A DNA stretch of 64,000 nt from Candidatus Rokuibacteriota bacterium (GTDB lineage Bacteria > Methylomirabilota > Methylomirabilia > Rokubacteriales > CSP1-6): contig QHSL01000073.1 in assembly GCA_003220435.1 (NCBI GenBank), positions 1 to 64,000 on the forward strand, given 5' to 3'. Every line of letters starts with the position of its first letter. Positions within the stretch are counted from its first letter, which is position 1. Under the pieces are notes generated by a model that made no database searches, was not told where the DNA came from, and worked only from the letters and a program-made list of their open reading frames with translations. Shown here one piece after another: positions 1 to 61,417 of this stretch. Made by a program: the position numbers and the translations under genes.

Positions 1-617
1 GTCGAGGCCTCGGGAGGCTCGCCGTCGGGCCACTCGCCGCGGGCCTCGGGCCGGTGGTAGACGAGCCGCGCCATCGGCAACCCGACGAGCAGGACGGCGG
101 CGCCGGACAGGAACGCCGTCCAGCGCCAACCGAAGGCGGTCAGCGCGAGCACCACGAGCTGCGTGAGGAGCCCGCCCACGGGCATGCCGGTCGAGCTGAT
201 GCTGAGCGCGAGCGAGCGACGCCGGCGGAACCAGGCGACGATCGCGACGGCGATCGGCAGGTAGCCGCCGAGACTCGCGCCCAGCGCCATCAGGAAGAAC
301 GTTAGGAAGAACGTGACGGGTGAGCCGATCTGGCTGAACAGCATGAAGCCGACGCCGAAGATGGCCAGCCCGATACGGATCAGCGTCCGGGGGCCGAAGC
401 GATCGGTCAGCCATCCCTGCACCGGCCCGAGAATGCCGCTCTCGGCCCGCGCCATCGAGAACGCCGCCGAGAACATCGTCTTGCTCCAGCCGAACTCCCG
501 GCGCAGCACGACGACGTAGGCGCCGTAGGCGTGGAAGAAGAGCGCGCCCATCAGCGCCTCGAGGACGAAGCCGGCGCCCACGATCCACCAGCCGTAGAAG
601 CGCGGGCCCCGGATCAG
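1..617 (-). CDS. MFS transporter, cut by window edge
   Basis: The minus strand encodes the N-terminal ~205 residues of a major facilitator superfamily carrier; the C-terminal part lies outside the window. The N-terminus carries RFYGWWIVGAGF, a common opening of monocarboxylate/oxalate-type MFS proteins. It is followed by hydrophobic helices, a loop with GWLTDRFGPR (the MFS motif between TM2 and TM3) and an arginine-rich loop FRRRRSLALS. The substrate is unknown. The start is a problem. The frame runs straight out of the stop codon of the upstream oxidase gene at 657, and no ATG, GTG or TTG precedes the conserved RFYGWW motif. I placed the start at a CTG (617), 12 bases after a GAGGAG. The first ordinary start (GTG, 581) would remove the motif. 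Confidence 0.75.
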   Translation of the reverse strand, partial: MIRGPRFYGWWIVGAGFVLEALMGALFFHAYGAYVVVLRREFGWSKTMFSAAFSMARAESGILGPVQGWLTDRFGPRTLIRIGLAIFGVGFMLFSQIGSPVTFFLTFFLMALGASLGGYLPIAVAIVAWFRRRRSLALSISSTGMPVGGLLTQLVVLALTAFGWRWTAFLSGAAVLLVGLPMARLVYHRPEARGEWPDGEPPEAS

Positions 618-30005: not shown

Positions 30006-30047
30006 CGCCTCGGCCGGTGGGGCCCCAGCCCCGCGACGCCCTGCGGC
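30006..30047 (-). repeat. 42-bp dispersed repeat, copy A
   Basis: This stretch, read on the minus strand, matches 44531-44572 (plus strand) at 40 of 42 positions. The core is GTCGCGGGGCTGGGGCCCC. It lies between the ATPase and binding-protein genes of the nucleoside-type operon. Confidence 0.75.
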
Positions 30048-44521: not shown

Positions 44522-44530
44522 GTCGTGCGC

Positions 44531-44572
44531 GCCGCAGGCCGTCGCGGGGCTGGGGCCCCGCCGGCCGAGGCG
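44531..44572 (+). repeat. 42-bp dispersed repeat, copy B
   Basis: This stretch matches the reverse strand of 30006-30047 at 40 of 42 positions. It starts ten bases upstream of the histidine phosphatase start. Apart from it, the 287-base gap to the Pal gene shows no gene I can support. Confidence 0.75.
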
Positions 44573-44808
44573 CGGCTACGAACCGTCGACCACGTGTCGC
44601 GGTGGCCTGCCCCCGCTGACGTTCTGGCAATCCGGGGCCTGGAGCACCGCCGGGCCCGCCCCGGCGAACGTACCACCCCTATTGGTGGTCGGCGGCCATT
44701 GCACCACATCTGGGTCGTCTCCCGCGGGCATCAGATGTGCAGCAGACCGCCGCGGGCGTGCTGCACGAACGAGTCGTGGCTTACGCCCGCCTCAAAAGGG
44801 GAGGAGCC

Positions 44809-50646: not shown

Positions 50647-51612
50647 ATGGCGCGCAAGCAAGAGGTGCTGGCGGGCGGAGAGACGGTGGTCGGGAGCGTC
50701 GTCCCCCAAACTCGCATCGAGTCGGACGCGCCCGCGAGCCCCTGGATCGCCGTGGCCAGGTTCGCGAGACGCAAGCCCCTGGGCGCCGTGGGCGGTCTCA
50801 TCGTCCTGGCCCTGGTCGTGACGGCGCTTCTGGCTCCGCTGATCTCCCCGTACGATCCGCGCCAGATCATCCGAGAGGCGGACAACCGCGTCCCCGTCTA
50901 CGTGGCTCCGGGAGCCGCCTATCCCATGGGGACCGACCACGTTGGGCGCGACATCGTGAGCCGGGTCATCCACGGCGCCCGGATCTCCCTGTACGTCGGG
51001 CTCGGCGCGGTCTTGATCGGAGTGACGGCGTGGTTCGTCGTCGGCATCGTCTCCGCGTACGCCGGGCGCGTGGTGGATCTCGTCGTGCAGCGAGTCGTGG
51101 ACGCCATGATGGCCGTTCCGGGCCTGATCATCGTCCTGGCCATCATGGCCGTGCTGGGCTCCTCCTTGAACAACGTCATCATCGCGATCGTCATCGGTAT
51201 GCTGGCTCCCGTCGTCCGCACGGTCCGGTCGCAGGTGCTGTCGGTGAAGGAGCAGGAATACGTCGTGGCGGCCCGGGCGATCGGCGCTCGCTCGGCGCGC
51301 ATCATCGTGCGGCACATCATGCCCAACTGTCTGGCGATCTATCTGATCCTGGCCACCTACTATCTGGGCTTCGCGATCATCCTCGAGGCTTCGCTGAGCT
51401 TCCTCGGCGTGGGCGTTCCGCCGGATGTCCCGAGCTGGGGCGGCATGCTGACGGCGGCGGCTCAAGGCCACATCACGAAAGCCCCGTGGGCGGGCATCTT
51501 CCCCGGTCTCGCCATCTTCATCGTCGTGCTGGGCTTCAACCTGCTGGGTGATGCCCTGCGGGACGTGCTGGAGCCCAGGCTCCGGGGCGCGCGAAGGGGG
51601 CTCATGCGGTGA
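50647..51612 (+). CDS. Peptide-type ABC permease (DppC-like)
   Basis: This 321-residue partner permease has LGAVGGLIVLALVVTALLAPLISPYDP (TM1 and the family motif), YPMGTDHVGRDIVSRVIHGARISL and an EAA loop YVVAARAIGARSARIIVRHI. It ends in GDALRDVLEPRLRG. No DppD/DppF ATPase follows; instead a GMC oxidoreductase gene overlaps its stop by four bases (GTGA). The importer must borrow ATPases encoded elsewhere. Confidence 0.93.
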   Translation: MARKQEVLAGGETVVGSVVPQTRIESDAPASPWIAVARFARRKPLGAVGGLIVLALVVTALLAPLISPYDPRQIIREADNRVPVYVAPGAAYPMGTDHVGRDIVSRVIHGARISLYVGLGAVLIGVTAWFVVGIVSAYAGRVVDLVVQRVVDAMMAVPGLIIVLAIMAVLGSSLNNVIIAIVIGMLAPVVRTVRSQVLSVKEQEYVVAARAIGARSARIIVRHIMPNCLAIYLILATYYLGFAIILEASLSFLGVGVPPDVPSWGGMLTAAAQGHITKAPWAGIFPGLAIFIVVLGFNLLGDALRDVLEPRLRGARRGLMR

Positions 51613-53243
51613 GCGCGCGCAGGGTCGAGGGCCGGAGCTACGACTACATCATCGTGGGCGCGGGATCCGCCGGCTGCGTGCTCGCGCACCGACTCACCGC
51701 CGAGCCGTCGATCCGCGTGCTGCTGCTCGAGGCCGGCGGACGGGACACGCATCCGTTGATCCACGTCCCGATCGGGCTCGGCAAGATCTGGGAGCATCGG
51801 ATGTTCGACTGGGGCTACGACACGGAGCCCGAGCCCCGGCTCGACAACCGTCGTATCGAGGCGATGCGCGGAAAGGTGCTCGGCGGAAGCTCCTCGATCA
51901 ACGTGATGGCCTACGTGCGCGGCCACCGCGGCGACTACGACCGATGGTCCCGGAACGGCTGCCAGGGCTGGTCGTACGCCGACGTCCTCCCCTACTTCAA
52001 GCGGTGCGAGAGCTGGGAGAAGGGCGAGAACACCTGGCGTGGCGGCCGCGGGCCGCTCTCCGTCATCGACACGCGCAATCAGGATCCGCTGTTCGACGCC
52101 TGGCTCGACGCCGCCCGAGACGCGGACTGGCCCTACACCGAGGACTACAACGGCAAGGACCAGGAAGGCTTCGGCCGCAGCCAGTGGACGATCAAGAACG
52201 GCCGGCGCTGCAGCGCCTCCGTGGCCTTCCTGCGGCCGGCGATGCGGCGGCCGAACCTCACGGTCGTCACCTCCGCGCTCGCGACGCGGGTGATCCTCGA
52301 GGGTACGCGCGCGACGGGTGTCGAGTACGCGCGCGACGGTGCCGTGCACCGTGCGGCGGCCACGCGCGAGGTGCTGCTGGCCGGGGGCGTGTTCAACACG
52401 CCGCAGCTCCTCATGCTGTCAGGCATCGGCGAGGCGGACCATCTCCGCCAGGTCGGCGTCGAGCCGAAGGTGAATCTCCCCGGCGTGGGCCGGAATCTTC
52501 AGGATCATCTCTCCGTCGACGTGCACCACGCCCGGCGCGGCCGCGGCCCGTTCCACGCGACGATGCGGCTCGACCGCGCGGCCGTCAGCATGGCGCGCGC
52601 CTATCTGCTCGGCACGGGCCCGGGCACCGTGCTGCCGAGCCGCCTGCACGCGTTCCTCAAGACGCGCCGCGAGCTCGCGGTGCCCGACATCCAGTTCCTC
52701 TTCCGCGGCGCGCCGGCGCGGGCGCACCTGTGGTTCCCCGGCATCACGCCGGCGTACGAGGACAGCTTCGGGCTTCGTCCGGTCATGCTGCATCCGGAGA
52801 GCCGCGGCGTCGTGCGGCTGCGCTCGGCGGACCCGAGCGCCCCCGTGCGGATCGTGCAGAACTTCCTGGCCACCGACCACGACGTCCGCACGATCCGCGA
52901 GGGCGTGAAGCTCGGACGCGATATCGCGAGTCGGAAGGCGCTCGACCCGTTCAGGAGCCGCGAGTCAGCGCCCGGGCCCGACTGCCGCACCGACGCCGAG
53001 ATCGACGCGTTCGTGCGTCGCACCGCGATCACCGCGCATCACCCGTGCGCCACGTGCGCGATGGGCACCGGCGAGCACGCGGTGCTCGATCCCGCGCTCC
53101 GCGTGCGAGGTGTCGAGGGCCTCCGCGTCGCCGACGCCTCGGCCATGCCCGATCTGGTCTCAGGCAACATCAACGCCTGCGTGTTGATGATCGCGGAGAA
53201 GGCGGCCGACCTCGTGCTCGGCTCGTCGTGGACGGGCCGGTGA
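51609..53243 (+). CDS. GMC-family oxidoreductase (choline dehydrogenase-like)
   Basis: This 544-residue FAD enzyme has YIIVGAGSAGCVLAHRLTAE (Rossmann GxGxxG), LLLEAGGRDTHP, GKVLGGSSSINVMAYVRGH (GMC signature 1) and LLAGGVFNTPQLLMLSGIG (GMC signature 2). The catalytic His and Asn segments are TAHHPCATCAMG and VSGNINACVLMIAEKAAD. It oxidises an alcohol to an aldehyde; the acceptor is probably quinone or another carrier. GTG 51609 overlaps the permease stop, so the imported compound is probably an alcohol or is converted from one. Confidence 0.92.
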   Translation: MSARRVEGRSYDYIIVGAGSAGCVLAHRLTAEPSIRVLLLEAGGRDTHPLIHVPIGLGKIWEHRMFDWGYDTEPEPRLDNRRIEAMRGKVLGGSSSINVMAYVRGHRGDYDRWSRNGCQGWSYADVLPYFKRCESWEKGENTWRGGRGPLSVIDTRNQDPLFDAWLDAARDADWPYTEDYNGKDQEGFGRSQWTIKNGRRCSASVAFLRPAMRRPNLTVVTSALATRVILEGTRATGVEYARDGAVHRAAATREVLLAGGVFNTPQLLMLSGIGEADHLRQVGVEPKVNLPGVGRNLQDHLSVDVHHARRGRGPFHATMRLDRAAVSMARAYLLGTGPGTVLPSRLHAFLKTRRELAVPDIQFLFRGAPARAHLWFPGITPAYEDSFGLRPVMLHPESRGVVRLRSADPSAPVRIVQNFLATDHDVRTIREGVKLGRDIASRKALDPFRSRESAPGPDCRTDAEIDAFVRRTAITAHHPCATCAMGTGEHAVLDPALRVRGVEGLRVADASAMPDLVSGNINACVLMIAEKAADLVLGSSWTGR

Positions 53244-53339
53244 CGGCTTTTGTCAGCCCTCCTTCCGCCGAGGGCATCTTGTCCGCTCGGCGTCGCGGTT
53301 AGAACAGCGGATTTCCTGCGCTGTCGGCATCGACCCCTC

Positions 53340-53355
53340 TGGTACGGCGCTTGCG
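53340..53355 (+). promoter_or_regulatory. Sigma-54-type promoter candidate (-24/-12)
   Basis: TGGTACGGCGCTTGCG matches the consensus TGG(C/T)ACG-N4-TTGC(A/T): GG and GC are exactly ten bases apart. Transcription would start near 53366, 17 bases before the cytochrome ATG at 53383. No sigma-54 activator with an AAA domain is encoded in the window. Confidence 0.55.
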
Positions 53356-53382
53356 GAGGCTGAGGAAGTAAGCCGGAGGGGG

Positions 53383-54447
53383 ATGATGACAGGACGACTG
53401 ACGGTTGTCGCGATCGGACTCTCTCTGCTCCTCGCGGGCGCGGCGATGCCGATGATGAGACCGCGTCTCGGGGATCCCTTGCCTGGTTTGACCTCGACCG
53501 AGCTCACCCGGTTTACACAAGGCAAGGCCGTGTTCAGCCGCGAGTTCACGCCGGAGACCGGTCTTGGGCCGTTCTTCAACAACGTTTCATGCGCGCAATG
53601 TCACGAGGATCCCGTGACCGGTGGCGCCGGGGCCTTCAACGAAGACGACGTCGATGTCGAGCGGCACGCCACCGCTGGCGACCAGCCGAAGACCTGCGAC
53701 GAGCTGACGGGGTTTGGCGGACCGGTCTTCCGCGAGCAGACGACGGGGCCGAACCTCCCCCCGATCCCTGCCGACGCGGCCGTGCACGTCGGGTTGCGGT
53801 CGACACCGATGCTCTTCGGCTTTGGTCTCGTCGAGGCCATTCCAGAGAGCGCGATCCTCGCCCACGAGCCTCGCGCCGGCGGCCGAGCGGCCAGGCTCCC
53901 GGATGGACGACTCGGGCGCTTCGGTCGGAAGGCAACTGATCCTGATTTGCCAACCTTTGTCGCCGGGGCCTTCAACAAGGAGCAGGGGATCGACATCCCG
54001 GATGAGCTGAGTCCGGCCGATCTGGATCTCACCGTGGACTTCATTCGATTCCTCGCGCCCCCCGCGCCACTCCAACGGGACCACGAGGGCTGGGAGGTCT
54101 TTCATCAGGTCGGGTGTGCGGAGTGTCATATCCCGTCGTTCGTCACCAAGAGTCCGATCAAGGTGCTCGATCGACAAGTGGTCCACCTCTTCTCTGATCT
54201 GCTCTTGCATGACATGGGGCCCGCTCTCGCCGATCTGTGTAAGGGTGTCGCCGCCCGGGCCGAGTTTCGTACCGAGCCGCTCATGGGTTTGCGGGCGCGG
54301 AGCCGCTTTCTCCATGATGGACGGGCCCTGACCCTGCAGAGCGCGATCGTGCAGCATGGCGGGCAAGGGGCGGCGGCCGCCGCGGCGTTCTTGAACCTCT
54401 CACGCCGCGATCGCGAAGCGCTGCTCCGGTTCCTGAAGAGCCTATGA
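53383..54447 (+). CDS. Di-heme c-type cytochrome / di-heme oxidoreductase (DUF1111-like)
   Basis: This 354-residue exported protein has a signal peptide (LTVVAIGLSLLLAGAAM) and two heme c sites, Cys70-x-x-Cys73-His74 (CAQCHEDP) and Cys245-x-x-Cys248-His249 (CAECHIPSF). Between them lie FREQTTGPNLPPIP and LRSTPMLFGFGLVEAIPESAI, and near the end GLRARSRFLHDGRALTLQSAI. This layout matches the di-heme oxidoreductase family related to MauG and bacterial cytochrome c peroxidases. Its periplasmic electron partner is unknown. Its last six bases overlap the convergent kinase gene. Confidence 0.87.
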   Translation: MMTGRLTVVAIGLSLLLAGAAMPMMRPRLGDPLPGLTSTELTRFTQGKAVFSREFTPETGLGPFFNNVSCAQCHEDPVTGGAGAFNEDDVDVERHATAGDQPKTCDELTGFGGPVFREQTTGPNLPPIPADAAVHVGLRSTPMLFGFGLVEAIPESAILAHEPRAGGRAARLPDGRLGRFGRKATDPDLPTFVAGAFNKEQGIDIPDELSPADLDLTVDFIRFLAPPAPLQRDHEGWEVFHQVGCAECHIPSFVTKSPIKVLDRQVVHLFSDLLLHDMGPALADLCKGVAARAEFRTEPLMGLRARSRFLHDGRALTLQSAIVQHGGQGAAAAAAFLNLSRRDREALLRFLKSL

Positions 54448-56424
54448 CGCCGACGGTCGTGGAATAGGCGCCGGGCCCGACCCGGCCAGCGTCTCGGCGG
54501 GCAGCTCGATGACGAACCGCGCACCTCCGCCCGGGCGATTCTCGACGCTGAGCGTGCCTCGTTGATGCTCGATGATGGCGTGCGACACCCAGAGGCCCAG
54601 CCCTGTACCTTCACCGGCCGGCTTCGTGGTCGAGAACGCCTCGAAGATTCGCGGGAGCAGCGTCGCCGGAATGCCCGGGCCGGTATCGAGCACCTCGAGC
54701 CGGACATGGTTCGCCGGGGCGGCGCTGAGACGCAGGGTGAGCACGCGCGGGCCGGCGTGCGCCGCCATCGCCTGGTGCGCGTTCTGGACCAGATTGAGCA
54801 GCACCTGCTGGATCCTCGTTTTGTCGGCCAAGACCGCGGGAACGGGTTCCAGCTCGGTGATGACCTGGATATCGTCCTGCGTCAGCTCGTGACTCTTGAG
54901 CTCGACCACCCACTCGACTTGCTCTCGAAGATCACACCGTTCGCCCTCCGCCGAGTGCCCCCCCGCGAACCGCAGGAGGTTCTCAAGGAGCCGCGCGGCC
55001 CCCGACGTCTCCTCGACGATCGTGCGGAGGTGCTGCCGACCGGTCACGGACACATCCGACCTCATCAGCGACAGCTCCGCGAGAGCCAGGATCGTCGTCA
55101 GCCGATTTCGAATCTCGTGCGCGAGCCCCGACGCCAGCTTCCCGGCCGTCGAGAGCTTCTCGCCTTCGATGAGTTGAGCCTCGGCCACCTTGAGGCCCTC
55201 GAGGTGGTGCCGGGTATCCGAATGGAGCTGCGAATTGGCGAGGGCGAGGCCGATCTGATTCGCGCTCGCTTCGACGAGCGCGACCTCGGACCGGGTGAAT
55301 GGCTCGGGTGCTCGACGGCCGAGTGACAGAACACCGAGCGGCCGGCCGCGGTTCCGGACCGGGACGCAGATGAACGCGCGGATCCCTTCCTCGTCGATCA
55401 CCGCTCGCGTGGACGGCCCGAGATCGATGGCCGCGCCTGCGTCCGCCAGGTCAACCGTGTGACCGCTGGCCGCAACGCGACCGAGGGCGCCCTGACCGGC
55501 CGGCAGGATCCGGAGGAGCTCCCGCAGTCGGGGCCGCAGGCCCCGGTCGCCGCGAAGGTGCAGCGTCGCTCCGTCCGCGGAGAACAGATGCAGGCTCGAG
55601 ATCTCGTGGCCGGTCACCCGGGTCAGGGCGTCGAGCGCGATGCGCAGCACCTCGTCGACGTCCAGGCTCGCGCCGATCGTCTCGCCGATGAGGTGCAAGA
55701 TGCGGAGGTGAGGCTCGACGTGCAGCCGGCGGACGCTTTCCGACCGCCTGACGAGGTCATCGAGCTGCGACCACTGCTGGGCCGAGAGGTTGAGGAAATG
55801 GAAGGCGTATCCATCGAAGTCGGCGCGCACGAGAAACGACGCGACGTTCAGGCGCGTCTCGCCTTCGGGCAACGTCAGCGTCAGCGCCGTCTCCTGCCCC
55901 GGTCGAGTCACGCCGCCCGCGCGGATCTTGACCCCCGAGGTGCTGAGATTGACCGAGGTCGATTCCCATTCGCGCCCGTTCGGCTCGCGGGCTCGGACCG
56001 GCAGCGCCACGGGCGTCCGCAGTGCGCGCCGCCGCTCGATCGGTGGCGCCTCGGGGCGCCGATCCGAGGGACGCGGTTCAAGACATCCGAGCACTTCGGC
56101 CAGGCGTTGGAGGGCAACCGGCTTACCGATGAAGTCGAAGGCGCCCAGCTGTAGGCAGTCCTGGGCCTGGCTCTCCGTCGCCCGGCCGGAGATCACCACG
56201 GTCGGGACGCGTAGCTCGCGAACCACTTGAAGCTTCAAGAGATCGAGGCCGCTCATCCCGGGCAAGCAGATGTCGAGCAGCATCGCTTCCGGGCGCTCGG
56301 CACGGAGCGCGTCGAGCGCCGCTTCAGCGGTATGGACGACGAGGGGCTGATGACCCACCTCGCTCAGGAACTCGGCGAAGACCCCGCACAGGGCCCGATC
56401 GTCTTCGACCACCAGCACGCGCAT
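54442..56424 (-). CDS. REC-PilZ-GAF-histidine kinase hybrid
   Basis: This 660-residue cytoplasmic signalling protein begins with a receiver domain (Asp51 in LLDICLPGMSG, Lys101 in IGKP). A PilZ-like domain follows at ~128-220 (RRALRTPVALPV, VNLSTSGVKIRA, a c-di-GMP-binding layout), a GAF domain at ~245-400, and a kinase core with phospho-His436 in GLAHEIRNRLTT, a DTGPGIP ATP-site and GEGTGLGLWVSHAII. The receiver is N-terminal and no transmembrane segment is seen, so input comes from another kinase. The usual Pro after HEIRN is Arg. No DNA-binding domain is present. Confidence 0.88.
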   Translation of the reverse strand: MRVLVVEDDRALCGVFAEFLSEVGHQPLVVHTAEAALDALRAERPEAMLLDICLPGMSGLDLLKLQVVRELRVPTVVISGRATESQAQDCLQLGAFDFIGKPVALQRLAEVLGCLEPRPSDRRPEAPPIERRRALRTPVALPVRAREPNGREWESTSVNLSTSGVKIRAGGVTRPGQETALTLTLPEGETRLNVASFLVRADFDGYAFHFLNLSAQQWSQLDDLVRRSESVRRLHVEPHLRILHLIGETIGASLDVDEVLRIALDALTRVTGHEISSLHLFSADGATLHLRGDRGLRPRLRELLRILPAGQGALGRVAASGHTVDLADAGAAIDLGPSTRAVIDEEGIRAFICVPVRNRGRPLGVLSLGRRAPEPFTRSEVALVEASANQIGLALANSQLHSDTRHHLEGLKVAEAQLIEGEKLSTAGKLASGLAHEIRNRLTTILALAELSLMRSDVSVTGRQHLRTIVEETSGAARLLENLLRFAGGHSAEGERCDLREQVEWVVELKSHELTQDDIQVITELEPVPAVLADKTRIQQVLLNLVQNAHQAMAAHAGPRVLTLRLSAAPANHVRLEVLDTGPGIPATLLPRIFEAFSTTKPAGEGTGLGLWVSHAIIEHQRGTLSVENRPGGGARFVIELPAETLAGSGPAPIPRPSAS

Positions 56425-56669
56425 GAAGGCAGCCTCCCTTCCGTGTCCTGCATGGAAAAGCTGTCTGAACGCTGTGCTGAAGGGAGTCTTGAGCAAGCGG
56501 CGTACCAGCGACAGCATGCCCGCACCGGGCGTAACTGGCCGTGAAAAGGATTTATTTTTCTCGATATTTCCGGAATCCCTGACGGCTGGGATCGCGCCGG
56601 GCCGTAATCCTTACACGGTCTCCCAATTTTTCGATAACGCGACGCGCTGAGCGAGGCAACGCTTCGGGG

Positions 56670-56936
56670 TTACCGCCGGAGCGCAAGCAGGTCCAGCACG
56701 GCGCCGATTCCCGAAGCTTTGCCTCGACGTCGCCGTCCGTCATCGGGTTGCGCGCGTGCCCCTTTTGGATACTCGGCGCGCTCAGCAAAGCGCTGACCGG
56801 AGCGGGTGATCACGTCGATCTGCGACGGGAGCTCCTGGGGCACCGCCTGGCGGCCCGATGCGTGCATCGCGGCGATCGTCTGCAGCCACGACACGTCCAG
56901 CTGGCTCCTGGCTCCGGCGGAATCCACGGCGGTCAC
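56670..56936 (-). pseudogene. Truncated copy of the CinA-adenylyltransferase 5' end
   Basis: Its N-terminus (DSAGARSQLDVSWLQTIAAM, HASGRQAV) matches residues 2-30 of the gene at 58848-60029 (DSASALRQQLNASWAQTIAAM, HDSGRKAV). After that it diverges into unrelated basic sequence. The matching upstream DNA (56949-56992 against 60062-60105, 41 of 44 identical) shows that a block of promoter plus 5' coding sequence was duplicated and then decayed. The rest of the 56425-57022 gap holds no other gene that I can support. Confidence 0.65.
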
Positions 56937-56948
56937 GGTTCCTCACGG

Positions 56949-56992
56949 CGGATGGTGGAAGCGATCCTCGGCGGACTCAACGGCGTGCTATG
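56949..56992 (+). repeat. Duplicated regulatory block, copy 1
   Basis: 44 bases starting CGGATGGTGGAAG, 41 identical to 60062-60105. Both copies lie between divergent genes, 31 to 38 bases before the plus-strand start codon. Confidence 0.8.
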
Positions 56993-57022
56993 TTGAAGGC
57001 CCTCACTCGGAGGCAGCGCGCC

Positions 57023-57964
57023 ATGGTGAATGATCGAGCGGAGAAGTATCGGTCCCGCGTGCGCAAGCCGGACGACTTCGATGCGTTCTGGGACCACGTG
57101 CTGCGGCAGGCGGCGGCCATCCCACTGGAGGCCGAGGTCGTCCCCGACCCGCTTCGGACATCGGAAGACGTCGAAGTGTTCCAGGTCTTCTACACCAGCA
57201 TCGACCACGTGCGCGTCGCCGCCTGGTATTGTCGTCCCGCCCGCAGAGCGGAGCGGACGCCGGCCGTCATGGTCCTGCCGGGCTATCAGATGGACCCGCC
57301 GATTCCCAAGGAGTGGGCGCGGAAAGGCTACGTGGCGCTGTCAGTCGCGCCGCGGGGCAAGCTGCGCAGCAATCGCCAGTTCAACCCGGGCTATCCGAAC
57401 CTCCTGACCCACAACATCGTGGACCGGCATACGTACGCTTATCGCGGGTTCTACGTGGATACGTGGCGCGGCATCGACTTCCTGCTGTCGCGTGCGGAGG
57501 TCGAGTCGACGCGTATCGGCGTCACCGGCAGCAGCCAGGGCGGCGGCCTGACCATCACGACCGCCGCGATGCGGCCAGAGGTGTGCGCGGCCTCGGCCGG
57601 GGCGCCGTACCTCTGTGGCTTCACCGACGCGATCGAGCTCACGCACACCTATCCCTACGAAGAGATCAACGACTATCTGCGCCTTCATCCCGAGCGCCGC
57701 GCCGAGGTGGAAGAGACAGTCGCCTACTTCGACGGGATCAACTTCGCCGACCGGATCTCCTGCTCGATCATCGTGAACATCGGCTTGCAAGACAATGTGT
57801 GCCCGCCGGAGACCGGCTACGCGCTGTTCGACAGGATCGGCGCCGCGAACAAGCGCCTGTATCCTTACGCCGGGCACGGGCACGACGCCGGCCGCGCGCG
57901 GCACAGCGCGGTCGCCGACGCCTTCTTCGCCCGCCACCTCCTGGGCCGCGAGGGAAGCCTGTGA
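57023..57964 (+). CDS. Acetylxylan esterase-like alpha/beta hydrolase, intact triad
   Basis: This 313-residue cytoplasmic esterase resembles the acetylxylan esterase/cephalosporin deacetylase group. The nucleophile elbow is GVTGSSQGGGLT (Ser171), the acid is in GLQDNVCPPETGYALF, and the His is in YAGHGHDAGRARH. It shares the insert YPYEEINDYLRLHPERRAEV with the next protein. ATG 57023 has GGAGG nine bases upstream. Its last four bases overlap the GTG of the next gene, so the two are produced together. Confidence 0.85.
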   Translation: MVNDRAEKYRSRVRKPDDFDAFWDHVLRQAAAIPLEAEVVPDPLRTSEDVEVFQVFYTSIDHVRVAAWYCRPARRAERTPAVMVLPGYQMDPPIPKEWARKGYVALSVAPRGKLRSNRQFNPGYPNLLTHNIVDRHTYAYRGFYVDTWRGIDFLLSRAEVESTRIGVTGSSQGGGLTITTAAMRPEVCAASAGAPYLCGFTDAIELTHTYPYEEINDYLRLHPERRAEVEETVAYFDGINFADRISCSIIVNIGLQDNVCPPETGYALFDRIGAANKRLYPYAGHGHDAGRARHSAVADAFFARHLLGREGSL

Positions 57965-58851
57965 CCTCGTACTGGAACGATGTCCTTGCCGCGCTGGCGC
58001 TCTATCCGGCGCGTCCGGAGATCGAGGCGCTCCCGTTGAGGAGCACGGCGTTCGCGACGCTCTACGGAGTACGGCTCACCAGCCTCGGCCCCTATCGCCT
58101 GTTCGGCTACCTGAGCATTCCCGCCGGCGCCGGTCCGTTTCCCGCGATCTACTATCCGCCGAAATATCAGAGCGTCCTGGAGATCATCCCGCAAGGGACG
58201 GCAAATCTGATGCGCAGCCGGTACGTGACGTTCGCGCTCGCCGGCCGGGGTCAACGCAACGCCGACACGCCCTACGCCGCACTGTTTCCCGGCCTGCTCA
58301 CCGACGGCATCGACGACGCCGCCTCGTACGTGTTCCGCGGCATCGTGGCCGACAGCGTCCGCGGACTGGAGTTCCTGCGCTCGCGGCGCGAGGTCGATGC
58401 CGCACGCGTGGTCCTCGCGGGCAACGACATCGCGCTCATGACCGCCGCCCTCACGACGGGGGCGACACACGTCGTGACCACGCCGACCCTCTTCTACCAG
58501 ACGGCTGAGCTGGCTCCGAAGAGCCACGCGTACCCTCTCGAAGAGATCAACGACTACCTGCACCTGTACCCGGCGCGCGCCGAGGCGGTGCGCCGCACGC
58601 TCGCCCACTACGACCTGCTCGGTCTGGCACCGCGCGTGACCGCCGCGACGCTCCTGATGGCCGGCGCGCCGTCCACCCTGCTCGATGGCGCGGCCCTGCG
58701 GCCCCTCGCCACCGCGCTGCGCGGCCCGGTGACCGTGTACGAGTCCCAGCAATCGCTCTACAAGGACGGCCTGTACAGCGAGCGGTGGATGGCCGGGCAG
58801 TGCGGCATCGCGGACGTACAGAGCATCCTTCCGGAGCACTGGCGGGATTAG
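57961..58851 (+). CDS. Esterase paralogue without the catalytic triad
   Basis: This 296-residue relative of the preceding esterase has the same order of segments: AGRGQRNADTP, DSVRGLEFLRSRREVDAARV and YPLEEINDYLHLYPARAEAV. The nucleophile elbow is VLAGNDIALMT, with Asp156 where the partner has Ser171. The terminal His is also lost (TVYESQQSLYKDG). It is probably not a hydrolase. Four-base overlap with the active esterase suggests a heteromeric complex or a substrate-binding or regulatory subunit. Its last four bases overlap the convergent CinA fusion gene. Confidence 0.8.
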   Translation: MTSYWNDVLAALALYPARPEIEALPLRSTAFATLYGVRLTSLGPYRLFGYLSIPAGAGPFPAIYYPPKYQSVLEIIPQGTANLMRSRYVTFALAGRGQRNADTPYAALFPGLLTDGIDDAASYVFRGIVADSVRGLEFLRSRREVDAARVVLAGNDIALMTAALTTGATHVVTTPTLFYQTAELAPKSHAYPLEEINDYLHLYPARAEAVRRTLAHYDLLGLAPRVTAATLLMAGAPSTLLDGAALRPLATALRGPVTVYESQQSLYKDGLYSERWMAGQCGIADVQSILPEHWRD

Positions 58852-60029
58852 GCGCGGCGGCGCGCGCGGATGTCCGAAGACGATGAGTCGAGGCGGAACC
58901 GACTTTCGGGGATCGGCGTGAACAGGTGCGCGAACCTCGGCGGAACGGCGACGTCGGCCAGCGAGCGCACGCGACCGCCGCTGTCCGCCCGCACCGCCAC
59001 CAGGAACGAGCTCCCCCGGTCCGCGATCTCCTGCAGCGCCGCGGCCATCCGCGCCTCGTCTCCGCCGTAGTAGCGCGCCGCCACCAGCCGCTCGGCGGTG
59101 TCGGCGCCCACCACGAACGTCACGCCGGGTAGCAGGCGCGCCTTCTCGAGAAACGTCGGCGCCCGCGTCAGCTCGACCCGCGCTCGTCCCGCGAACTGCG
59201 CGAGCCGGCTGCGCACCTCGCCGGAATCGAGCGGCGCCTTGTCGACGTTGGTCACCGAGAGCTCGAAAGCGACCGGCAGCTGCCGAAGACCCTCCGCGAC
59301 TCGCGCCAGCAGCAAGTGGCCTTCGTGGAGCGGGTTGAACGAGCCGGGAAGCACGACGCCCGGAGCCGGCGCCGATGGAGCCAGCCGTCCGTCGGGCCAC
59401 GCCGTGACGCGATCGAGGCCTCCGGCGATCAGCCGATCGATCGGATCGCTCGCCGCCGCGGCGGCCGCCGTCGTGTAGCGCTCGTCGGCGTCGAGCAGGA
59501 CCTGAGGCGAGGGCGCGTCGACCCCACAACCCCTGGCCAGACACAGCACGATGGCGCGGGCCACCAGGTCCTCTTCGGCCGCCCGATCGCGCCGCCCCTT
59601 CGCCAGCACGATCGACGCGACCTCGGTGCCGGCGGTGGCGGCGACGGCGATGTGGCAGCGATGCTCGCCCTGCCGAGGCCGATCGGTGACGAGGCCCGCG
59701 GTGGCGCCGAGCCCGAGCAGCAGCGCGCCCGCCGGGGCGAGCTTCGCCGCGCGCTCGCGCGAGCGCTGCGCCATCGCCACGGCGGTCTCGACGCTGCAGG
59801 CCTGAGGCGGATCGAAGCCCAGGAACTCGGTCAGCGAACGCGCGTCGTACGGCACCACCGCCTCGAGCAGCAGCCGCGATCCGCCGGGCACGCGCAGCAG
59901 CTCGGCGATCGCCCCGCTGCCCCCACCGGTGATCGCGAGCACGGCCTTGCGGCCGGAGTCGTGCATCGCGGCGATCGTTTGCGCCCACGACGCGTTCAGC
60001 TGCTGGCGCAGTGCACTGGCGGAATCCAC
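58848..60029 (-). CDS. CinA-like domain fused to nicotinate/NMN adenylyltransferase-like domain
   Basis: This 393-residue fusion starts with GTG 60029. Residues ~1-185 resemble the CinA C-terminal (nicotinamide-nucleotide amidase) fold, with ITGGGSGAIAELL and AVAATAGTEVASIVL. Residues ~225-393 are a cytidylyltransferase-like domain with GSFNPLHEGH (229-238, the H-x-G-H nucleotide-binding motif), FVVGADTAERL and the terminal SSSDIRARRR (ISSTxIR-type motif). Together the two domains could recycle pyridine nucleotides: NMN deamidation and adenylylation. A similar domain pair is known in plants. It is convergent with the esterase pair, divergent from the PHM-like gene. Confidence 0.8.
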   Translation of the reverse strand: MDSASALRQQLNASWAQTIAAMHDSGRKAVLAITGGGSGAIAELLRVPGGSRLLLEAVVPYDARSLTEFLGFDPPQACSVETAVAMAQRSRERAAKLAPAGALLLGLGATAGLVTDRPRQGEHRCHIAVAATAGTEVASIVLAKGRRDRAAEEDLVARAIVLCLARGCGVDAPSPQVLLDADERYTTAAAAAASDPIDRLIAGGLDRVTAWPDGRLAPSAPAPGVVLPGSFNPLHEGHLLLARVAEGLRQLPVAFELSVTNVDKAPLDSGEVRSRLAQFAGRARVELTRAPTFLEKARLLPGVTFVVGADTAERLVAARYYGGDEARMAAALQEIADRGSSFLVAVRADSGGRVRSLADVAVPPRFAHLFTPIPESRFRLDSSSSDIRARRRA

Positions 60030-60061
60030 GCGGTCACGCTCCTTTCGCGGATGTGCTTCGC

Positions 60062-60105
60062 CGGATGGTGGAAGAGATTCTCGGCGGAGTCAACGGCGTG
60101 CTATG
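60062..60105 (+). repeat. Duplicated regulatory block, copy 2
   Basis: Second copy of the 44-base block (see 56949-56992), three mismatches. It lies between the CinA fusion gene and the copper monooxygenase-like gene. Confidence 0.8.
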
Positions 60106-60142
60106 GTCGAGACCCCTGATCCGCTCGGCCGCGGAGGCGCAC

Positions 60143-61417
60143 ATGTGGACACGGCTTCTGGTCACGCCGGCTCTCGCGGTACTGCTGCTCTCCGCGACGG
60201 CCCCCGCTCTCGAGCCGCCGACCTTCAGCGACGAGGTCGTCCGGATCCTCCAGAATCGCTGTCAGACCTGTCACCGTCCGGGGGAACACGCGCCGTTCTC
60301 CCTGCTGAGCTACCGCGACGCGTACGACAAGAAGGACGACATTCGCGACGCCGTCCACGCCCGCGCGATGCCGCCGTGGAAGCCGGTGTTCGGGTTCGGC
60401 GATTTCCTGGAGCCGCGCCGCCTCTCCGACGCCGAGCTGGCAACGCTGCTGCGCTGGGTCGAGGCGGGCGCCCCGGAAGGCGATCCCGCGAATCTTCCGC
60501 CGCCGCTCGTCTTCTCGGAGGGATGGAAGCTCGGGCCGCCCGATCACGTTCTCGAGATGGCCGAGCCCTACACGGTGCCCGGCCGGGCCAGCGACGTGTA
60601 TCGCTGCTTCGTGATCCCGACGAGCTTCCCGGAGGATCGGTGGGTCACGAAGGTCGAGTGGGCGCCGGGTGACCGGAAGCTCGTCCACCACATCCTCTCG
60701 TACATCGACACGACGTCCGCGGCCGAGGCGCTCGATCGGCGCGACCCCGGGCCCGGCTACACCTGCTTCGGCGGGCCCGGATTCAATCCGGCCGGCGGCC
60801 TCTCCGGCTGGGCGCCGGGCATCCAGCCGCGGGTGATGGCTGACGGCGTCGGCATGCTCCTCCCGAAGGGCGCCCGGGTCGTCGTGCAGATGCACTACAA
60901 CAACAACGAGCCCGAGAGCCGGACCGATCGCACGCGCGCCGGCTTGCACTTCGCGAAGGGGCCGATCGACAAGCGTCAGCGCTCCATCGCGGCCCTCAAT
61001 CGCACGTTCACGATTCCTGCGGGCGACCGTCGCTACGAGGTGCGCGCGTCCTGGACGGACTATCTGGGCCGCGACCTCCACGCCAACACGATCACGCCGC
61101 ACATGCACCTGCTCGGGCGCGAGATGATGGTGACCGCGACGTATCCCAACGGCCTCGTCCGTCCCCTCGTTCACATCGACGACTGGGACTTCAACTGGCA
61201 GGGGACGTACACGTTCACACAACCGGTTCCACTGCCGAGGGGTACGCGGATCGACGTGGTCGCGGTGTTCGACAACTCTGCCGCGAACCTCCGTCAGCCC
61301 AGCCGTCCGCCGCGTCCGGTCAGCTGGGGCGAGGGCACCATCGACGAGATGGCCATCGTCTTTCTCGGCGTGACGGTCGACGCCGAGCGCATCGGGTGGC
61401 GCCCCGCGGCGAAGTGA
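60143..61417 (+). CDS. Cytochrome c / copper type II monooxygenase-like exported protein
   Basis: This 424-residue exported protein starts at ATG 60143; a signal peptide (WTRLLVTPALAVLLLSATAPA) precedes a single heme c motif, Cys40-x-x-Cys43-His44 (CQTCHRPG). The rest resembles the peptidylglycine/dopamine-type copper monooxygenase fold, with copper-ligand candidates LVHHILSY, VVVQMHYNN and TPHMHLLGREM. The Met in the last one fits the CuM site. It may be a heme-coupled redox enzyme in the periplasm, with a substrate that is not identifiable. The upstream open frame to 60011 is not needed. Confidence 0.82.
   Translation: MWTRLLVTPALAVLLLSATAPALEPPTFSDEVVRILQNRCQTCHRPGEHAPFSLLSYRDAYDKKDDIRDAVHARAMPPWKPVFGFGDFLEPRRLSDAELATLLRWVEAGAPEGDPANLPPPLVFSEGWKLGPPDHVLEMAEPYTVPGRASDVYRCFVIPTSFPEDRWVTKVEWAPGDRKLVHHILSYIDTTSAAEALDRRDPGPGYTCFGGPGFNPAGGLSGWAPGIQPRVMADGVGMLLPKGARVVVQMHYNNNEPESRTDRTRAGLHFAKGPIDKRQRSIAALNRTFTIPAGDRRYEVRASWTDYLGRDLHANTITPHMHLLGREMMVTATYPNGLVRPLVHIDDWDFNWQGTYTFTQPVPLPRGTRIDVVAVFDNSAANLRQPSRPPRPVSWGEGTIDEMAIVFLGVTVDAERIGWRPAAK

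Follow-up and report, generated by a model that had tools for sequence, protein, structure and literature searches.

A truncated second copy of a cinA start region in front of an esterase pair of a Rokuibacteriota genome: an inserted mosaic segment and a possible promoter capture

Introduction

On a contig of an uncultured Candidatus Rokuibacteriota bacterium from soil (QHSL01000073.1, assembly GCA_003220435.1), the start of a cinA-fusion gene (hereafter cinA) and the DNA upstream of it are found twice, 3.1 kb apart and in the same orientation, once at the gene itself (copy B) and once, cut off, in front of a pair of esterase genes (copy A). How did the second copy come to lie there, and does it tie the esterases to the control of cinA? 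The original prediction had read the arrangement as a duplication of a regulatory block, whose copied promoter or operator might now drive the esterases and put the two loci under one control. To answer these questions the window, i.e. the whole stretch of 64,000 nucleotides that was analysed, was compared with its own genome (G000) and with its relatives, which are Candidatus Rokuibacteriota MAGs, mostly from soil, and are indicated below as G001, G002 and so on. The features of the locus are collected in Table 1.

Table 1. Coordinates of the features in the window, from the GMC oxidoreductase gene to the divergent partner of cinA
Feature	Position	Strand	Remarks
GMC oxidoreductase (choline-dehydrogenase-like)	51609..53243	+	
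Inserted segment	53223..57062		3.84 kb in place of 75 bp of G003 (C21:18610-18685); mosaic of single-gene pieces
Di-haem oxidoreductase (DHOR)	53383..54447	+	closest G007:C78, 84% aa; 72% in G003:C19
Hybrid response-regulator/PilZ/GAF/histidine kinase	54442..56517	-	
MmgE/PrpD family remnant	56670..56840	-	C-terminal part, frameshifted
Copy A	56840-57003		in front of the esterase pair; cut-off cinA start and intergenic region
Copy A, coding part	56840..56936	-	first 29 codons of the cinA-fusion gene, joined in frame to the PrpD remnant
Copy A, intergenic part	56937..57008		holds the 44-mer (56949-56992) and, close to the right end, a rightward TGCTATGTT box
est1, AXE1-family esterase	57023..57964	+	with GSSQG
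est2, AXE1-family paralogue	57961..58851	+	
CinA-like and nucleotidyltransferase-like fusion gene (cinA)	58848..60029	-	intact
Copy B	59939..60115		start of cinA with the divergent intergenic DNA; 44-mer at 60062-60105; TGCTATGGT box, rightward, close to the right end
Haem/copper-monooxygenase-like protein	60143..61417	+	divergent partner of cinA

Results

The two copies of the cinA start region

That the upstream region of cinA and about 30 of its codons occur twice was confirmed by a repeat search, by an alignment of the whole stretch and by a BLAST search of the genome. The alignment gave 29 codons, the intergenic region and a 44-base block (44-mer) as common to both copies. Among the direct repeats of the region, the two longest pair 56840-56903 with 59939-60002 (64 nt, 84%) and 56946-57002 with 60059-60115 (57 nt, 86%). 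In the 5.44 Mb genome the BLAST match of copy A had E = 6.7e-29 (77% over query positions 40-206); for a third copy, nothing below E = 0.008 turned up. The repeat is real and chance is excluded. The three changes reported for the block also stood: the 44-mers (56949-56992 vs 60062-60105) differ at exactly three positions, 56962, 56966 and 56976. Stretches of 13 nt and 3 nt are present in copy B only. A third 44-mer site was absent from the own genome at up to 3 mismatches, and each relative has one site; the idea that the 44-mer marks a regulon spread over the genome was rejected on this ground.

In copy A the cinA frame stays open for 29 codons and then runs in frame into the C-terminus of an MmgE/PrpD family protein, which gives an 88-aa ORF (56670-56936). 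Since the end of the PrpD gene runs directly into copy A, this ORF is a fusion of two gene fragments, probably without function. The coding relic of copy A keeps all of the 53 columns that are invariant in seven orthologues, so that the cinA gene from which it derives must have been functional until recently.

As for the intact gene, CinA/nucleotidyltransferase-like fusions were found in Chloroflexota, Planctomycetota, SAR86, Gemmatimonadota and Latescibacterota at 31-49% identity; a search for the fusion gave no PDB sequence match and weak Pfam matches, and its product is possibly an NMN deamidase plus adenylyltransferase. Next to cinA lies est2. In 10/10 genomes its product has neither of the catalytic residues of est1, Ser and His, yet the gene always follows est1 and is, by its sequence, a conserved pseudo-esterase partner of est1. 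Elsewhere in the window we observed a GC-rich, REP-like repeat (44522-44585, core 44535-44572, CAGGCCGTCGCGGGGCTGGGGCCCCGCCGGCCGAGGCG; also 30006-30043), of which this genome holds 129 copies with up to 3 mismatches and four relatives 41-97 (reversed control, 0), often in adjacent pairs 60-65 bp apart.

Gene order in the relatives

The GMC gene is followed by est1 at a distance of about 20 bp in G003, G005 and G006; next come est2, cinA, which runs leftward, and the intergenic region. GMC, est1 and est2 probably form one operon in these three genomes. The haem gene follows the intergenic region in G005 and G006. G003 has lost the greater part of this haem/copper gene by deletion and keeps its last ~65 codons beside cinA (L036:7320-7523, corresponding to window 60116-61220). 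G004 has the order est1-est2-cinA-haem gene on a short contig that cuts est1, and the DNA upstream of est1 lies outside the contig. In G007 and G002, cinA comes directly after GMC and the esterase pair is on another contig; G001, G015 and G008 carry the pair at another site or apart from GMC. Eight relatives have readable DNA upstream of est1, and copy A-like DNA was found in none of them: this DNA is unrelated to copy A in G007, G001, G002, G008 and G015 as well as at the GMC junctions. A family-wide search with copy A returned only the cinA-linked copy per genome, and the expected donor arrangement, a cinA start beside est1, was absent from the 57 family genomes, a thin sampling.

The inserted segment and its pieces

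From 44 to 64 kb the window is collinear at about 90% with G003, its closest relative, save for 53223-57062 and the haem-gene loss of G003. Homology to G003 ends at 53222, near the end of the GMC gene, and di-haem-type DNA begins near 53269, with no homology at this end of the insert. The piece 53269-54447 comprises the di-haem gene and its own upstream DNA, nearest to G007:C78. It is followed by the kinase module (54489-56657), which is 90% identical to G003:C22 and 89% to G008:C174, with different neighbours there. Together with its own upstream region, this module sits in different surroundings in four species (the window, G003, G004 and G008), the breakpoints falling in the final ~15 codons of the gene and ~140 bp ahead of its start; its next-best match in the own genome is 75%, with no second near-identical copy. 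The MmgE/PrpD gene is intact in G001, G002 and G004-G007, and an intact close copy was found neither in G000 nor in G003. Neither flank of copy A belongs to the ancestral locus. The pieces of the insert have separate nearest relatives, on different contigs, and all pieces are of this genus. A plasmid origin of the insert was considered and set aside, the matches on plasmids being weak and confined to the kinase domain.

The origin of copy A

In a tree of the copy region with A, B and six relatives, copy B was sister to the single copy of G003 (UFBoot 91) and a sister grouping of A and B was rejected (AU p = 0.036, KH p = 0.058), and the 5' end of est1 (positions 37-180) rejected a grouping of the window with G003 (AU p = 0.043). 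By itself each of the two tests is weak, with p about 0.04 on alignments of about 164 and 144 columns. A single group of A, B and G003 was not rejected in the tree. The first ~180 bp of est1 are closest to G008/G002, not to G003, the rest of the gene puts the window next to G003, and the switch of the nearest relative lies between 57143 and 57203. As both copy A and the start of est1 are out of place, the simplest account is that they came together from another lineage of the genus. On these comparisons, the most likely source of copy A is a segment that came from elsewhere in the genus and recombined within est1. We consider it rather probable that copy A, as the relic of another cinA start and intergenic region, came in with the inserted segment and is not a local duplicate of copy B.

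The conserved block and its promoter boxes

G002-G007 each have the core of the 44-mer once, in every case where cinA starts. On the leftward (cinA) strand, copy B reads TTGACT-N17-CACCAT, and TTGAC with TANNNT at this spacing is enriched in the DNA of the genus, with 8 sites against 0-2 at other spacings. Even in G007 and G002, in which the gene opposite cinA ends rather than starts, the block has been retained, which points to a conserved role on the cinA side; judged by this pattern, the conserved block is the promoter side of cinA. In copy A, 3 of the 33 invariant columns of the block are changed (0 of 53 in the coding relic), invariance being judged on seven orthologues, and one of these changes hits the -35 box of the cinA side (TTGACT to TTGAGT).

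On the rightward strand, the motif TGNTATGKT is found at loci A and B and in G003, G005 and G006, with no site outside this region in 331 kb of genus DNA. It is absent from G007 and G002, in which no rightward gene starts. There are exceptions, since G003 has the motif with only a remnant of the rightward gene and G004 has the gene without the box; the rule is therefore not strict, and the rightward box would only tend to accompany a rightward gene. In copy A the rightward box is intact. Such a pattern, with the cinA side changed and the rightward box kept, is to be expected of a dead cinA side next to a rightward side that is either in use or merely young. Copy A probably contains a bidirectional promoter region. 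A scan of 56800-60250 found no consensus sigma-70 promoter, and no Rfam match to an RNA element was found in 53-61 kb. The leader of copy A resembles that of G005 up to about 57008. Its similarity to the haem-protein leader was marginal (p = 0.016 in one of four comparisons), and the proposal that copy A continues into the haem-gene leader was dropped on this account.

What drives the esterases

The esterase genes were probably driven from elsewhere before, est1 directly following GMC in G003, G005 and G006. In the window the pair no longer adjoins GMC, the kinase gene lies upstream in antisense and copy A is directly in front. Since the kinase runs the other way, initiation is expected between 56518 and 57022, unless there is read-through, and copy A lies in the place where the promoter of the esterases, cut from GMC, must be. 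Copy A may supply a rightward promoter for est1 (TGNTATGTT box), and the proposed start elements would be the TGCTATGTT box, the leader, GGAGG and ATG 57023.

An ATG at 56990, in the TATG box of copy A, shares the reading frame of est1 (MLKALTRRQRAMVND..., MLKA...; 56990-57022), and a longer product is formally possible. It was set aside as the true start of est1: this TATG is also conserved at loci with no est1 behind it, and the ATG at 57023 is preceded by a GGAGG in a good position.

Discussion

The reading that we prefer starts from an ancestral order GMC-est1-est2, leftward cinA, promoter region and, where kept, rightward haem/copper gene. In the window lineage a 3.84-kb mosaic would have taken the place of the 75-bp GMC/est1 junction. 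On the right it would have joined through homologous recombination within est1, with a breakpoint at about 57160-57200, and on the left at the GMC end, without detectable homology. A crossover inside est1 would mean that the donor had est1 behind a cinA promoter region. Before or after arrival, cinA and the PrpD gene of the segment would have been cut into the fragments seen now. The esterase pair would have lost the promoter of the GMC operon, and its transcription would now begin from the rightward half of the intergenic DNA that was captured; for this promoter capture, read from the sequence, we regard the chances as evenly balanced. That a copied promoter drives the esterases thus survives in part from the original prediction: a probable promoter region sits where the esterase promoter must be. 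A local duplication as its source does not survive, for besides the position of copy B in the tree the flanks disagree, the PrpD remnant and the kinase module lying to the left of copy A and cinA itself to the left of copy B.

An older duplication, in the ancestor of the window and G003, of a unit made of cinA, its promoter and possibly the haem gene, lost again in G003 and kept truncated in the window after deletions, would fit the closeness and equal orientation of A and B in one genome, the single tree group that they can form with G003 and the coding part of copy A, whose unaltered invariant columns speak for a gene that was working until recently. Because the tree tests were made on short alignments, such a duplication with losses keeps some place among the explanations. 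We hold it to be unlikely, since the second copy would have left no trace in G003, G005 and G006, in which the GMC-est1 junction is intact, and since the foreign first 180 bp of est1 and the PrpD, kinase and di-haem pieces would stay unexplained. A chimera of the assembler, joining unrelated DNA at 53222-57060, comes to mind in a metagenome-assembled genome in 147 contigs with 3.5% contamination and with several junctions close together; it is, however, most improbable, as neither the kinase module nor copy A has a second near-identical copy in the genome, so that there is no repeat to mislead the assembler, every piece belongs to this genus, and the kinase and the esterase pair have moved in separately assembled relatives too.

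A shared operator, by which the copied block would put cinA and the esterases under one control, could account for a 44-mer kept with only three changes right in front of est1. All three changes, however, fall on positions invariant in seven orthologues, at odds with the untouched coding relic and not as expected of an operator held in common; the conserved site is not intact in both copies. Moreover, the block is single-copy and linked to cinA in the relatives and is absent from their esterases, which lie behind unrelated DNA in 8/8 readable relatives; this is the sequence half of what the original prediction itself had named as speaking against it. The comparison with relatives gave no sign of shared control of the two loci, and we give this explanation very little credence. 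The kinase module, the esterase pair, the di-haem gene and the cinA start are each found in different places in different species. That genes of the genus relocate singly with their own promoters, through a recurrent mechanism cutting near gene ends by which the esterases would have gained a working promoter, seems to us a very improbable reading of this mobility.

The preferred reading, an inserted segment recombined within est1, resembles homology-facilitated illegitimate recombination (PMC3240628), a model that has been applied to the gene arrays of Vibrio cholerae (PMC5361080), in having homology at the est1 end, none at the GMC end and gene remnants in a row. The homologous anchor at the est1 end is modest (p = 0.043). 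It differs from that model in that the donor was not found in 57 family genomes, that the event is deduced here from sequence, and that the pieces of the insert are of different origin, which probably implies more than one event. With promoter capture and operon re-wiring, represented by the activation of transferred genes by tandem duplication in the portion of PMC11111574 considered here, the locus has in common a gene parted from its former promoter and now behind the promoter region of another gene; in contrast to what that portion describes, the copies are not a recent duplication and the capture is deduced from comparison of the DNA. Two similar promoter regions in one genome also recall the duplication of a promoter that creates a two-locus regulon, but copy A is changed at positions of the conserved block and the arrangement occurs in no relative.

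As a type of event, what we describe is ordinary: a rearrangement scar, possibly with a captured promoter, in a Rokuibacteriota MAG. It offers a legible case of operon rewiring, in which the old neighbour of the esterases is gone, a foreign promoter region would have been installed and the fragments can still be read. Similar promoters in one genome need not signal co-regulation, and it is the comparison with relatives that separates inheritance from shared control.
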